Source: Candidatus Rokuibacteriota bacterium (lineage in GTDB: Bacteria > Methylomirabilota > Methylomirabilia > Rokubacteriales > CSP1-6). Taken from it: a stretch of 64,000 nucleotides of DNA. The stretch is from the NCBI GenBank assembly GCA_003220225.1, contig QHRU01000035.1, forward strand, positions 186,001 through 250,000, given 5' to 3'. The notes below the pieces were generated by a model that was given only the letters and a program-made list of their open reading frames with translations, was not told the origin of the DNA and made no database searches. A program made the translations under genes and the position numbers. This document shows positions 57,428 to 63,997 of this stretch, piece by piece. Positions within the stretch are counted from its first letter, which is position 1. Each line of letters begins with the position of its first letter.

Positions 57428-58102
57428 TCAGGCCCCGGCGGCGGCCTCGGTGGCCAGCGCGTCGGCGCGCGCGTTGAAGTGGGCGAAGTCGTCGCGCCCC
57501 GCCCAGGAGGCGGCGTGGCCGCTCTGGCGGCGGAACCGCACCGCGAGGCGCCGCCGGCCGATCAGCGCGCGGCACGCCTCGACGATCTCGGCAACCAGCG
57601 GGTCCTTCGCGCGCCACCGGCCCTCCAGCCACGCGCCCACGCCCTCGTAGTCGTGCACGACGGTCACCGCGGTGCCCTCGGGGAAGAGCCGCAGCGCCAG
57701 GTGCAGCGCCGCGAGCTCGGCGAGCACGTTGCGCAGGCGGTTGAGCGCTGCCGTGATCGCGCGCGGCGTCGAGAGCGACGGCAGCCCGGCGCCCGCGAAG
57801 ACCTGGTGCACGGTGAGGCCCAGCGCCTCGACGATCTCGGGCTCGCCGTCCGCCGTGCGCTCCACCAGGACGACGCCGACGCCGCCGAGGTGGTTGCCGT
57901 CGACGAACGCGTAGAGCCCGGGCTCCAGCGCGGTCCCCTCGCCGCGCAGCATGGCCTCGGCCTGCTCGAGGCTGGCGACCGCCTGATAGCGCGCCCCGGA
58001 GACCCCCTTCACCGCCGCCGCGCAGGCCGGCCAGGAGTCGTAGATCCCTCGGATGCGCTCGGGCTCGGTGACGACGTAGACCTTGGAGCCGGCCTTAGCC
58101 AC
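57428..58102 (-). CDS. rnhA: RNase H1 with N-terminal hybrid-binding (viroplasmin-like) domain
   Basis: 224 residues from GTG 58102. Residues 6-52 match the caulimovirus viroplasmin/HBD fold ([32 protein letters not shown]). The RNase H domain follows: AFVDG (first catalytic Asp), [12 protein letters not shown] (Glu), [11 protein letters not shown] (Asp) and ARADALA (last Asp). It degrades RNA of RNA-DNA hybrids. The start overlaps the true end of the osmC gene by 8 bases. Confidence 0.85.
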
Positions 58103-58523
58103 GCCGCCCGGTGACCGCCTTGACCTGCACCTTCACGTCGGTCGCGCCCGCGACCGTACGGTAGAGCGGTCACCGCTGGCGATACGTCTCGACGAGCGAC
58201 TCCGCCTGCGTCTGGCTCACGCCGGCCAGCTCGAAGCTCATGCTCACGCGCGCGAACCGGTTGGGCTCGGCGGCCGTGCGCGTGCCCTCGATGGTGACGT
58301 CCATGCCGGCGAGCGGCACGTCCGTCTCCTTGGCGTGCATCTCGATCAGGGTCACGCCGCACGACGACACGGCGGCGAGAAACGCCTCGCTGTTGGTGAA
58401 CGCGTCCGCCTGCGGTCGCGACGACGAGTCGAACGCCACCGTCACCCCGCGCGCGGCGTTGCGCGCGCGCCCCAGCACGCCCGAGCTCGACGACCGGATC
58501 GTTTCCACCTTGTCCTGGCTCAT
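58095..58523 (-). CDS. osmC: OsmC/Ohr-family redox protein with in-frame UGA (probable selenocysteine)
   Basis: A 142-codon gene if UGA at 58172-58170 is read through; stopping there would give 117 residues and lose the conserved end. Peroxidatic Cys55 lies in AVSSCGVTLIE. The UGA is codon 118, in RQR-U-PLYRTVAG, exactly where family members have the second redox Cys (CP motif). The remaining 24 codons stay in frame to TAA. A SECIS-like hairpin begins 13 bases after UGA. The family reduces organic hydroperoxides. Selenocysteine OsmC proteins are known from environmental selenoprotein surveys. Confidence 0.8.
58139..58156 (-). promoter_or_regulatory. Bacterial SECIS-like hairpin in osmC
   Basis: On the - strand CGGTCGC pairs perfectly (7 bp) with GCGACCG around loop GGGC. 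The loop begins with G and starts 20 bases after the UGA, within the spacing expected for SelB recognition. Confidence 0.65.
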
Positions 58524-58565
58524 GGCGGCCTCCTTGTCGGCCGATGATACCTCGCGGGGGAGGAT

Positions 58566-59153
58566 TCAGCGGCGCGGCGGCCCCGCGCTGAATCCCTCGA
58601 ATTCCGTCACGCTGTCGGCCTTCGACCAGACGCCCACCCGGCCCGGCTCCGCGAACGTGTCGTCACGGACGGCGAACAGCCGGGCGCCGTCGAAGTGCAC
58701 CGTGAACTCCGGCCCCGCGAACTCCACGCGGAGGGTGTGCCAGGCGTCGCTCGTCACCGTCGTCTTGACGCCGTAGGCGCGCGCGGCGGCGCCGACGGGC
58801 TTGAGATCGGACCGACGGCCGCCCACCATCTTGTAGGCGACGACGTTGTCCTCCAGCGCGTTGGCGCGCGCGACGTAATAGTTGTTCGCGTCGCGCCAGC
58901 GCCACACGACGCCGCCCGCGCGATCCTCGCGGCCCTCGCGCGGGCGGAAGCGGGCCTCCACGAACCCGTCGCGCAGCGGCTCGCCGGCCACCGCCCACCC
59001 GAAGGCCGCGCCGCCGCGGTAGGCGAGGCTCGCGCCGTCCTGCGTCCAGCGCGCCGTGCCCTTGCCCGTTCCCCCGGTCGTCCACGTCAGGTCCGCGCCG
59101 ACGCCGTGTGTGAGCATGAGGAGGAGGCTCACGCCGATGACAGCCGCACGCAT
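58566..59153 (-). CDS. Secreted LamG/3-keto-disaccharide hydrolase-like beta-sandwich protein
   Basis: 195 residues, signal peptide RAAVIGVSLLLMLTHGVGA. The fold signature is FVEARFRPREGREDRAGGVV, NYYVARANALEDNVVAYKM, TSDAWHTLRVEFAGPEFTVHF and FAEPGRVGVWSKADS, typical of DUF1080-like concanavalin folds. A sugar or polymer ligand is likely but unknown. It overlaps the ChrB-like fusion gene by 25 bases. Confidence 0.75.
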   Translation of the reverse strand: MRAAVIGVSLLLMLTHGVGADLTWTTGGTGKGTARWTQDGASLAYRGGAAFGWAVAGEPLRDGFVEARFRPREGREDRAGGVVWRWRDANNYYVARANALEDNVVAYKMVGGRRSDLKPVGAAARAYGVKTTVTSDAWHTLRVEFAGPEFTVHFDGARLFAVRDDTFAEPGRVGVWSKADSVTEFEGFSAGPPRR

Positions 59154-59953
59154 AGGTCCTCCAGCCGCGCCACGATCGCGTCGCGCGCGGCGCCGTAGCC
59201 GTCGCTGATCGCGGGAACGTCCCAGCGCTCCACCTTCTGAGCGCCGCGGAGCCACGGCCCGAGGTCGCAGCCGAAGCTCACGATGTGGTCCGCGCTGGCG
59301 ACGTCGTGGAGCGTCACCGGCCGCGGCCGCGCGATGCTCGGGGCCAGGCCATCGGCGGCGAGCCCCTTGGCCGTCCCCGGCGTCAGCTCGGCCTCGGGCT
59401 CGGTGCCCACCGCCGTCGCGGTGACCGCGAGCCCGCGCCCGCCGGCGAGCCGGCGGAAGTGCGTCGCGGCGACGACGCTCTTGGCGGCGCCGTGCAGGCA
59501 CGCGAAGAGGACGCGCCGGCCGGCCGCCGCAGGCGCCGTCTCGCGGCAGTGGGCGTAGAGCGCGTCGTAGAGCGGAAACTGCAGGCGCATGTTGTCGTGA
59601 TCGTCCCGCGCGATCACGCGGAAGCCCGAGGCGGCCGCATAGAGGCCGGCGGACTCGGGCGTGAGACCGCGCGCGTCCGTGTCGGCGCCGCGGACGATCG
59701 GCGCCAGCGCGGCCAGCGCCGGGTCGTCCAGCTCGTAGCGCTCGACGAAAGCGTCGAACGAGCAGCGCGGGCCGTGGTGCCCGAGCTCGACGTTCGGGAC
59801 GTCGTACGCCACGGCGCTCTCGCGCTTGGCGACCGCCAGCACCTCGCGGTCGGGGACGAACAGGAACTCCGGCGCGGGATCGATGAACCGCGCGATCAGC
59901 CAGGGACAGGCGATGCGATCCACCCGCGCCTTTTCACGTGTCACCCATTTCAT
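59129..59953 (-). CDS. ChrB C-terminal-domain / LMW protein-tyrosine-phosphatase-like fusion
   Basis: 274 residues. Residues 1-140 match the ChrB/chromate resistance domain: VDRIACPWLIARFIDP, YDVPNVELGHHGPRCSFDAF and LYAHCRETAP. From about 145 an arsenate-reductase/LMW-PTP fold follows: VLFACLHGAAKSVVAATHF, TPGTAKGLAADGL, HDVASADHIVSFGCD and ERWDVPAIS. The nucleophile is Cys152, but the P-loop is CX5K-S (Lys158) instead of CX5R-S. Such a fusion may couple oxyanion sensing and reduction. First in a run of chromate-related genes. Confidence 0.75.
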   Translation of the reverse strand: MKWVTREKARVDRIACPWLIARFIDPAPEFLFVPDREVLAVAKRESAVAYDVPNVELGHHGPRCSFDAFVERYELDDPALAALAPIVRGADTDARGLTPESAGLYAAASGFRVIARDDHDNMRLQFPLYDALYAHCRETAPAAAGRRVLFACLHGAAKSVVAATHFRRLAGGRGLAVTATAVGTEPEAELTPGTAKGLAADGLAPSIARPRPVTLHDVASADHIVSFGCDLGPWLRGAQKVERWDVPAISDGYGAARDAIVARLEDLCVRLSSA

Positions 59954-61859: not shown

Positions 61860-62813
61860 TTACGATGTCCGCTTCAAGACCGCGTAGAGCCCGTCGAAGA
61901 TCGCCATGCCGCGCTCGAGCAGCTCGTGATCGTCGGACGTGCTCGCGGCCAGGCCGCGGATGGCCAGGTCGACGCCCATGGCCTCGCTGCGGCTGAACTT
62001 GCCGTCGTGCAGGTCGGCCTCGTGCACGACCTCCGCGATGACCCGCACGCGCCGGTCCTTGATGCCGAAGCGCTTGACGAGCGTCTCGAAGGTGCAATCC
62101 TCGCCGTGGTGTCCGAAATCGGCCCCGAGGACGTCGAACGGCACGCCCTTGCGCGCGGCGTCCGCGGCATCGGCGAAGCCGAACTTCGCGTCGGGGTCGC
62201 AGAAGCGCTTGATGAGCCACGCGGAGGCGATGCGGTCGATGTGCGGGCGCGGACGGGTGACCCACGTGCTTCCCGACGGCGGCAGCGACGCGCGGTGTCG
62301 TCCCCCCGCCGGGCGCGGCCGCGTCTCCGCCGCCCGCAGCCGTGCCGCCGTCGCCTCCCAGAGCTTGCGGGCCCGGTCGCCGGCCGGCGCTTCCAGGTGG
62401 TCGATGCCCTGCACGCGGTCGAGCTCACGCTTGAGTCCGTCCAGCGTGCTCCGGAGCTTGGCGGCGTGGCCGGCCACGTTGGCGCGGTGACGGTCGAGCT
62501 GAGCGAGGATCTCCCGGCAGCCGTGCACGACGGCCTGATACTCGACGGTGCGGGCCTTGTGGAACAGCGCGCGCACCTGCTCGTCGGCCATGTTCTCGAT
62601 GCGCTCCACGTGGACGAGCGTCGCCTCGCCGCGGATCGTCTCGATCTCCTGCACGAGCCACTGGAAGAGCTCCGTCGTCTCCGCGGTCTCCGGCAGGATC
62701 CACGCCGAGCCGCGCAGGCGGACGGCGCCCATGCGCTGGAGCTTGCGCCACACGCCGACGCGGTGCCGGGTCGGCGTGGGCGGGAGGGTCGCCAGCAGCA
62801 TCAGCCACCGCAT
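61860..62813 (-). CDS. chrB: Chromate resistance regulator ChrB
   Basis: 317 residues. N-terminal DNA-binding half: LMLLATLPPTPTRHRVGVWR, SAWILPE, LVHVERIENMADEQVRALFH. C-terminal half: THVTRPRPHIDRIASAWLIK-like stretch (THV replaced by TWV) and LGADFGHHGEDCTFETLVK. ChrB senses chromate and controls chrA. Its promoter shares an inverted-repeat region with divergent chrA, and the -10 box ends 6 bases before the ATG, so the mRNA may be leaderless. Confidence 0.9.
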   Translation of the reverse strand: MRWLMLLATLPPTPTRHRVGVWRKLQRMGAVRLRGSAWILPETAETTELFQWLVQEIETIRGEATLVHVERIENMADEQVRALFHKARTVEYQAVVHGCREILAQLDRHRANVAGHAAKLRSTLDGLKRELDRVQGIDHLEAPAGDRARKLWEATAARLRAAETRPRPAGGRHRASLPPSGSTWVTRPRPHIDRIASAWLIKRFCDPDAKFGFADAADAARKGVPFDVLGADFGHHGEDCTFETLVKRFGIKDRRVRVIAEVVHEADLHDGKFSRSEAMGVDLAIRGLAASTSDDHELLERGMAIFDGLYAVLKRTS

Positions 62814-62819
62814 GGTCGC

Positions 62820-62848
62820 AATGTAACGATTGCTACATTCTCTGTCAA
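62820..62848 (-). promoter_or_regulatory. chrB promoter
   Basis: On the - strand TTGACA (62848-62843), 17 bases, TACATT (62825-62820). Transcription would start within a few bases of the ATG at 62813. Confidence 0.7.
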
Positions 62849-62858
62849 GTGTTACATT
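62830..62858 (+). promoter_or_regulatory. chrA promoter
   Basis: TTGCTA (62830-62835), 17 bases, TACATT (62853-62858). The chrA ATG follows with a GGAGGGAAGCC ribosome-binding site. Confidence 0.6.
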
Positions 62859-62881
62859 GCCCACCAGCCCGGAGGGAAGCC

Positions 62882-63997
62882 ATGGACACCGACCACGCAC
62901 CGGCGCGCGTCCTGATTCGCCAGCTCGTCCTCTACTTCCTGCGCCTGGGCCTCCTCGGCTTCGGCGGGCCCGTCGCGCTCGTGGGGCAGATGGAGCGGGA
63001 GCTCGTCGCCGATCGGAAGTGGGTGACGCGCGACGAGATGCGGGAGGGCATCGCCGTCTGTCAGTCCCTGCCCGGCCCGCTGGCCATCCAGGTCGGCATC
63101 TGGCTCTCCTACATCCGCGGCGGATTCTGGGGCGCCTGGGCCGGAGGGTGGGCGTTCATCCTGCCGAACTTCGTCATCGTGGCGGCGCTGGCCGCCCTCT
63201 ACGTGCATTTCGGCGGGCTGTCGGCGGTGAGCCGCCTCACCAAGCTCGGGATGAAGGACGCCGTCGAGTGGGTGCTCGCGGCGGCGGCGTTCGTGATCAC
63301 CGTGGCCGTCCAGGCTGAGGTCGCCCTGGTCTTCGTCGCCTGCGGCATCGTCGGCCTCGCGTATTACGGCTCGCTCTTCCGCGCGCGCTCGACCGCGTCG
63401 ACGAGCGCCCTCCTGCTGGCCGTGCCGCTCGTCGTCACCGCGCCGCAGGTGAGCCTGGCGAAGCTGCTGACGTTCTTCCTCAAGGCCGGCTCGCTCACCT
63501 TCGGCAGCGGGCTCGTGATCGTGCCGTTCCTCGAGAAGGGGCTCGTGCAGCAGACGGGCTGGCTCAAGGAGCGCGAGTTCCTCGTCGCCGTTGCCATGGG
63601 CATGATCAGCCCGGGCCCGGTCGTGATCACCGCGACGTTCGTCGGCTACCTCGTCGCGGGGTTCTCGGGCGCCCTCGTCGCGACCCTCGGCATCTTCCTG
63701 CCCTCGTTCCTGCTCGTACTGATCGTCGCGCCCATCCTCGTGCGCTACCGCGCGAACGCGAACGTGCAGGGATTCGTGCGGGGCGCCTACGCGGCGGCCA
63801 TCGGCACGATCCTCGGCGCGTGCGTGCTGCTCGGGAAGATCGCGATCGGCGACTGGCTGACGGTGCTCGTCGCGCTGGCGAGCCTCGCCGTCCTGTTCCG
63901 GTGGAAGGTCAGCAATCCACTGCTGATCTTGGGCGCCGCCATCGTCGGCCTCGTCGCCTTCCCCCTGCTCCGGCCGGAGTGGGTGTTCGTGAAGTAG
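62882..63997 (+). CDS. chrA: Chromate transporter ChrA
   Basis: 371 residues from ATG 62882 after GGAGGGAAGCC (an earlier ATG at 62849 lies inside the operator). Two homologous halves: LRLGLLGFGGPVALVGQMER with CQSLPGPLAIQVGIWLSYIR, and FLKAGSLTFGSGLVIVPFLE with GMISPGPVVITATFVGYLVA. Ten or more TM segments. Pairing with chrB and shared operators indicates an inducible oxyanion efflux system. Distinct from the ChrA at 52-53 kb. Confidence 0.94.
   Translation: MDTDHAPARVLIRQLVLYFLRLGLLGFGGPVALVGQMERELVADRKWVTRDEMREGIAVCQSLPGPLAIQVGIWLSYIRGGFWGAWAGGWAFILPNFVIVAALAALYVHFGGLSAVSRLTKLGMKDAVEWVLAAAAFVITVAVQAEVALVFVACGIVGLAYYGSLFRARSTASTSALLLAVPLVVTAPQVSLAKLLTFFLKAGSLTFGSGLVIVPFLEKGLVQQTGWLKEREFLVAVAMGMISPGPVVITATFVGYLVAGFSGALVATLGIFLPSFLLVLIVAPILVRYRANANVQGFVRGAYAAAIGTILGACVLLGKIAIGDWLTVLVALASLAVLFRWKVSNPLLILGAAIVGLVAFPLLRPEWVFVK

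Follow-up and report, generated by a model that had tools for sequence, protein, structure and literature searches.

The initial annotation of the stretch of Candidatus Rokuibacteriota DNA analysed here (64,000 nucleotides; hereafter the window) raised the question of whether a gene of the OsmC family with a TGA at codon 118 encodes a selenoprotein, in which this TGA would be read as selenocysteine (Sec) at the place of the second redox Cys of the family. The features of the window that bear on this question are as follows.

58095..58523, minus strand: OsmC-family gene, read through the in-frame TGA, 142 residues plus TAA (translation, Pfam OsmC, 40 orthologues)
58170..58172, minus strand: predicted Sec TGA, codon 118, second redox position of OsmC/Ohr (translation, Ohr alignments, orthologues)
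58359..58361, minus strand: TGC codon of Cys55, first redox position (sequence; invariant in the 39-row alignment A1)
58139..58156, minus strand: SECIS-like hairpin, with arms 58156-58150 and 58145-58139 and tetraloop GGGC at 58149-58146 (folds and synonymous-site constraint in 39 genes)
58529..58535, minus strand: AAGGAGG, resembling a ribosome-binding site (sequence)
57428..58102, minus strand: next gene, with a GTG start and a Pfam RNase H1 N-terminal domain (ORF list and Pfam)

Translation of the frame from 58523 to 58095 gave 117 codons, the TGA at 58172-58170, 24 further codons and a TAA at 58097-58095, and the translation and the ORF list together confirmed the extension that had been described. 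The TGA at codon 118 is the only one in the frame, Cys55 is the sole Cys of the protein, and 5 nt separate the end of the AAGGAGG sequence from the ATG. When Cys was put at codon 118, the Pfam OsmC domain (PF02566) spanned the TGA, matching residues 39-132 with 49.2 bits against a cut-off of 27.5. Across the window, a coarse scan of codon usage detected five in-frame TGAs with coding-like sequence on both sides, among which the target ranked third; to the eye, each of the other four looked like the end of one gene running in phase into a different frame, and one of them is the stop codon of the immediately upstream gene.

Translation with table 11, which ends the protein at codon 117 and therefore misses the second redox residue, yielded only a 117-aa ORF. 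This ORF would be the true product if the UGA were an ordinary stop and the downstream frame a relic or an overlap. However, the TAA reached by readthrough overlaps the GTG start (58102) of the next ORF, and the last strand of the fold, which the AlphaFold model places at residues 129-137, is missing from the 117-residue form, in agreement with the claim that the short version lacks the C-terminus of the family.

The conservation of the region beyond the TGA was examined in 95 genomes of the phylum (E <= 1e-10; every match has a TGA inside). There were 40 orthologues in 39 of the genomes, which belong to two families (f1 and f2) and 18 genera; three further loci (L056, L057, and L058), whose contigs equal those of L027, L030, and L037 in length, were dropped as duplicates. 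All 40 carry the TGA at the place of codon 118, in the context R-U-P-L (motif UPLY), and 39 of them keep the frame beyond it, with PLY, V124, A125, A127, T128, and V130 invariant; C55, E46, and position 118 are likewise invariant in the 39 rows of A1. The conserved family sequence reported downstream of the TGA was thus a general property of the lineage, and no pattern of a plain stop was observed in 39 of the 40 loci. The single locus that would suit an ordinary stop is L054 (G063:C333), in which the UGA is present, followed by a stop after two codons, and no conserved sequence remains after it; this is possibly the result of decay or of an assembly fault. Because its downstream sequence is lost, L054 was omitted from A1, the codon counts, and the tree. 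Weighed against the frame retained in the other 39 loci, it leaves termination at codon 118 very unlikely.

All these genomes are fragmented drafts, which would favour a sequencing or assembly error, or a decayed gene, as the source of the TGA. The same TGA, and not TGC or TGT, was nevertheless found in 40 loci from 39 separate species genomes, and the synonymous sites after it are constrained (see below). Error or decay, which may still hold for L054 alone, is refuted as a general explanation, and its probability is negligible.

A profile built from 39 members, run against the phylum genomes at E <= 1e-5, returned the same 40 loci, one fragment in G068 and, as the next match, a Cys-type OsmC in G007 at 1.7e-7; this search of the 95 genomes thus revealed no orthologue with Cys. 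The fragment (G068:C461:2461-2562) is a partial match of 34 profile positions that includes a TGA, and a full orthologue lies elsewhere in G068. Outside the phylum, no relatives were detected in plasmids or phages at E <= 1e-5, and none was present among seven pattern matches in viral contigs. Bacteria beyond the phylum were covered thinly, by exact peptide patterns only, which gave three loci in the genome contigs of 84,980 species, all of them from Candidatus Rokuibacteriota.

A SECIS element had been proposed directly downstream of the UGA, in the form of a 7-bp hairpin with a G-first tetraloop at suitable spacing. The hairpin consists of 7 bp closed by the tetraloop GGGC, with 13 nt between the UGA and the stem and the loop starting 20 nt after the UGA. 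Folding of the 42 nt after the UGA gave an MFE of -19.3 kcal/mol, and the 57-nt fold had a z of -2.36, with 3 of 200 shuffles equally good. As far as the accessible text of PMC13188914 describes it, the bacterial SECIS model comprises a loop of 3-9 nt, a stem of 4-16 bp, a G among the first two nucleotides of the loop, a spacing of 16-37 nt, and an MFE <= -7.5; the target hairpin lies within this model in every respect. A comparison with Rfam gave no match for the target hairpin.

The hairpin folds in 39 of the 40 orthologues, L054 being the exception, and its stem codons are close to uniform in the 39 genes (Thr ACG 38/38, Val GTC 39/39, Ala GCG 35/39, the other Ala GCG 39/39, and Thr ACC 39/39). 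With respect to single-codon use, these columns hold the first five ranks among 30 conserved fourfold-degenerate columns (Mann-Whitney p 2.8e-4). When 125 windows of twelve codons were ranked by constraint, the first six all began at offsets from -1 to +4 relative to the UGA, and the mean synonymous-constraint excess was 0.32 over codons +1 to +12 versus 0.06 elsewhere. The conservation of the hairpin exceeds what the protein needs. Base-pair covariation is not countable in this alignment, since the upper stem is nearly invariant. The proposed element therefore agreed with the published model, as far as its text could be consulted, and bore constrained synonymous sites as well.

An open frame through a TGA cannot by itself separate Sec from other readings, and the UGA might be read as another amino acid through a reassigned code or near-cognate suppression. 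This explanation is opposed by the finding that 23 of the 40 orthologous genes terminate at TGA, which shows that TGA works as a stop in the same genes. In addition, homologues carry Cys at the position in question, the Sec machinery is present, and a hairpin of the kind described in the available part of the SECIS literature stands at the right distance. We consider decoding as a different amino acid to be extremely unlikely.

We searched the source genome of the window (G000; a 6.03 Mb draft, 97.3% complete) for the selA, selB, selC, and selD genes expected of a Sec-decoding organism, and all four were found. SelA (584.8 bits), SelB (372 bits), and tRNA-Sec (69.7 bits, gathering 47; identified by ARAGORN as tRNA-Sec with anticodon tca) are encoded near one another on contig C5; contig C159 encodes SelD (335.3 bits). 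The selD gene (L020, G000:C159:12780-13730) has an in-frame TGA of its own (ASCAGUASK), so that the SelD of this genome is itself probably a selenoprotein.

Across the phylum, selA was found in 83 of 95 genomes, namely in 34 of 39 with an orthologue of the target and in 49 of 56 without, and its co-occurrence with the target is therefore not discriminating. One carrier without selA (G052) has selB over the cut-off. In four of the 39 carriers (G057, G060, G077, and G087), no selA was detected, and no selB or tRNA-Sec over the cut-off, despite a listed completeness of 100% for G087 and 95% for G060. Three of these four also have an OsmC gene with Sec (U) at the first redox position, and selA is present in same-genus relatives (G056, G058, G059; G086). 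Since the source genome has selA, selB, and selC clustered together, one lost contig could remove all three, and we infer that the missing sel genes in the four carriers are probably assembly gaps.

Taken together, the TGA in 40 of 40 orthologues, the sel machinery, the constraint on the hairpin, and the homologous Cys supported the proposal that the gene encodes a probable selenoprotein. By all available sequence criteria it is a real selenoprotein gene, and its predicted product is very probably a Sec-containing small protein of the peroxide-defence type.

The AlphaFold model of the target (pLDDT 94.8, pTM 0.86) predicted an OsmC fold. The best match among solved structures in the PDB was 2egt (Z 16.3, rmsd 1.8 A over 130), followed by 1ml8 (Z 16.0, rmsd 1.6 A over 127) and then by other OsmC and Ohr entries, and all 39 members of A1 matched Pfam PF02566 (E <= 0.001). 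In all four of the listed alignments to Ohr proteins whose structures have been solved, U118 fell on the second Cys of Ohr and Cys55 on the first (4/4), which together with the R-U-P-L context placed the TGA where the initial annotation had put it, at the second redox Cys before Pro. One of the two redox residues lies in the central helix and the other before the last strand, and both match an Ohr Cys in the target; Glu46 aligns with the Ohr Glu. The target thus resembles Ohr and OsmC (TIGR03561 and TIGR03562) in the fold, the two redox positions, and the aligned Glu, but differs from them in that the second Cys is replaced by the predicted Sec. The predicted reading of UGA as Sec, the fold, and the pairing of the two positions are well supported at the sequence level.

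In Ohr, the first Cys, which is activated by an arginine, attacks the peroxide, the second Cys resolves, and a lipoyl dithiol reduces the disulfide. The chemistry, substrate, reductant, and dimer of the target may be envisaged by analogy with this enzymology of Ohr and OsmC. SelB and Sec-tRNA would decode the UGA at codon 118, aided by the hairpin just downstream, to give a product of 142 residues in which the redox pair of the fold consists of a single Cys (Cys55) and a single Sec (Sec118). Since these two residues are invariant and the protein has no other Cys, a Cys55-Sec118 selenenylsulfide would be the natural intermediate. By way of this bond, the protein would reduce an organic hydroperoxide, or else a related substrate with an oxidised thiol, and a cellular dithiol would then re-reduce the bond. 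Sec118 might resolve a Cys55 sulfenate, in which case both closure and re-reduction would be fast; alternatively, Sec118 might attack, with the roles exchanged. We regard it as likely, on these grounds, that the target is an OsmC-fold selenoprotein with UGA118 read as Sec, most likely reducing a hydroperoxide or an oxidised thiol through a Cys55-Sec118 selenenylsulfide.

Alternatively, the protein may be a selenoprotein in which Sec118 takes part in other thiol or sulfur chemistry (persulfide, organic disulfide, or metal) in a YhfA-like manner, and not a hydroperoxide reductase. The closest solved structures to the target, 2egt and 1ml8, were deposited as hypothetical proteins; the latter we take to be E. 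coli YhfA. The function of the YhfA-like branch is unsettled, and we know of no Sec in either protein. Structural closeness to this branch is, however, accompanied by only 13-14% identity to the target. The score of the target against the Ohr model TIGR03561 (29.4 bits) is under the cut-off of 88.85, and no clear counterpart of the Cys-activating arginine of Ohr was seen in the target alignments examined, both of which would suit a function other than peroxide reduction; ranked by E-value, the NCBIfam models closest to the target are nevertheless those of Ohr, and both redox positions are invariant together with Glu46. This alternative seems to us rather unlikely, although it carries appreciable weight.

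The target is one of five PF02566 genes in the source genome, four of which have an in-frame TGA (three at the first Cys, and the target at the second). L071 is all-Cys and scored 180.8 bits with the OsmC model TIGR03562. The three genes with TGA at the first Cys are as follows.

L072, G000:C28:35542-35853: U-T-S-M at the first Cys, second Cys kept
L074, G000:C148:23719-24024: U-L-M-T at the first Cys, second Cys kept
L075, G000:C126:957-1232: U-M-F-G at the first Cys, second Cys kept

At least 85 of the 95 phylum genomes have PF02566 matches. Among the matches listed there were 168 OsmC loci, 160 of which were aligned and 8 missed by the five-seed profile. The first and second redox residues in these 160 rows were U,C in 69, U and a gap in 2, C,U in 40, C,C in 35, and C,S in 13; the remaining row (L113), aligned in the wrong frame, was U,C on reading and was excluded from the tree and the per-genome count. 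Sec at both redox positions was seen in none of the 160 aligned rows. Among the matches listed, the set of C,U rows coincides with the orthologues of the target, and the C,U clade (39 rows, without L054) occupied one side of a branch with a support of 100/100 in a bootstrap that had not converged (correlation 0.988). The 81 genomes among the matches listed comprised 39 with C,U, 51 with U first, and 26 with both (without L113). In a second alignment, A2, the rows were chosen for Cys or Sec at the second position, and invariance there is partly by choice. Two loci, L134 and L139 (in G014 and G010), have U-M-T-T at the first position and no aligned second residue.

Within this one fold, Sec may be placed at either of the partnered redox residues across paralogues, often within one genome, and it is conceivable that in the target lineage, which has only Sec and has it on the classically resolving side, Sec118 attacks and Cys55 resolves, giving a mirror-image active site; we put this forward only tentatively. 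The C,S paralogues, which lack the second Cys (13 of the 160 rows among the matches listed), fit with the first Cys as the attacker in their own branches and say nothing direct on the target.

The initial annotation had referred to Sec-containing OsmC-like proteins from environmental selenoproteomes as a precedent. A single OsmC-like selenoprotein, with the motif UxxT, is catalogued in the accessible portions of the relevant papers (PMC1088965, PMC2398784, PMC9312934, and PMC13188914), and from these portions the published kind corresponds to NCBIfam NF041052 (OsmC_like_Se; OsmC-related (seleno)protein). The scores against this model (cut-off 95 bits) were 158.7 for L074, 53.9 for L072, 20.7 for L075, 52.2 for L139, and 19.2 for the target, and all 39 members of A1 gave weak matches, the best at E 7.4e-07. 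Since the target falls under the cut-off, the cited precedent is a different family; a published environmental kind thus exists within the text available, but not as the family of the target.

The NF041052 proteins, including the UxxT selenoprotein of marine metagenomes, share with the target the OsmC fold and an in-frame UGA at a redox position, and the member L074 has Cys at the other redox position, as the target does. They differ in that Sec is at the first position in L074, whereas it is predicted at the second position, within the motif UPLY, in the target. From L074 we infer that NF041052 and the published UxxT sequences carry Sec at the first position. In accordance with this, all UxxT motifs among the matches listed (ULMT 18, UMTT 2, and ULLT 1 of 71 U-first rows) were at the first position, and the UxxT motif, as given in the accessible literature, was not found in the target lineage (UPLY in 40 of 40). 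The target is, as judged from these alignments, a separate lineage with its predicted Sec at the opposite redox position from that of the known seleno-OsmC. L072 and L075 resemble the target in pairing a single in-frame TGA at one redox position with Cys at its partner, but their predicted Sec is at the first position and they branch separately in the tree; they may represent further undescribed Sec-OsmC lineages.

The accessible literature on OsmC selenoproteins and on selenoproteins of Rokubacteria or Methylomirabilota contained no description of the target lineage. PMC13188914 mentions a groundwater MAG study by Deng et al. and credits a Methylomirabilota MAG with 63 predicted selenoprotein genes; the target gene may already be contained, unremarked, in that study. 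The target would represent a second Sec-OsmC lineage beside the catalogued UxxT one, present in 39 of the 95 phylum genomes, among which no orthologue with Cys was detected. The target and its U-first paralogues form a natural pair for the standing question of selenium at the attacking versus the resolving site.

A conserved operon was also considered as a clue to function and rejected, as gene order was kept in one genus only (L027 and L056, on the same contig, and L036). Other shared neighbours were found only among the loci of genus g6 in the 25 loci listed, and no conserved operon partner pointing to a substrate or reductant was found among the loci compared. The U-first OsmC gene L113 (G069:C29) is immediately preceded by a frame that resembles the C-terminal part of dihydrolipoamide dehydrogenase; among the loci scanned, this link was observed at that locus only. 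Elsewhere in the window, an ORF at 59129-59953 on the minus strand showed a ChrB C-terminal domain and also matched low molecular weight phosphatase weakly, and a second ORF at 61860-62900, also on the minus strand, contains a stretch that is similar to it by eye.
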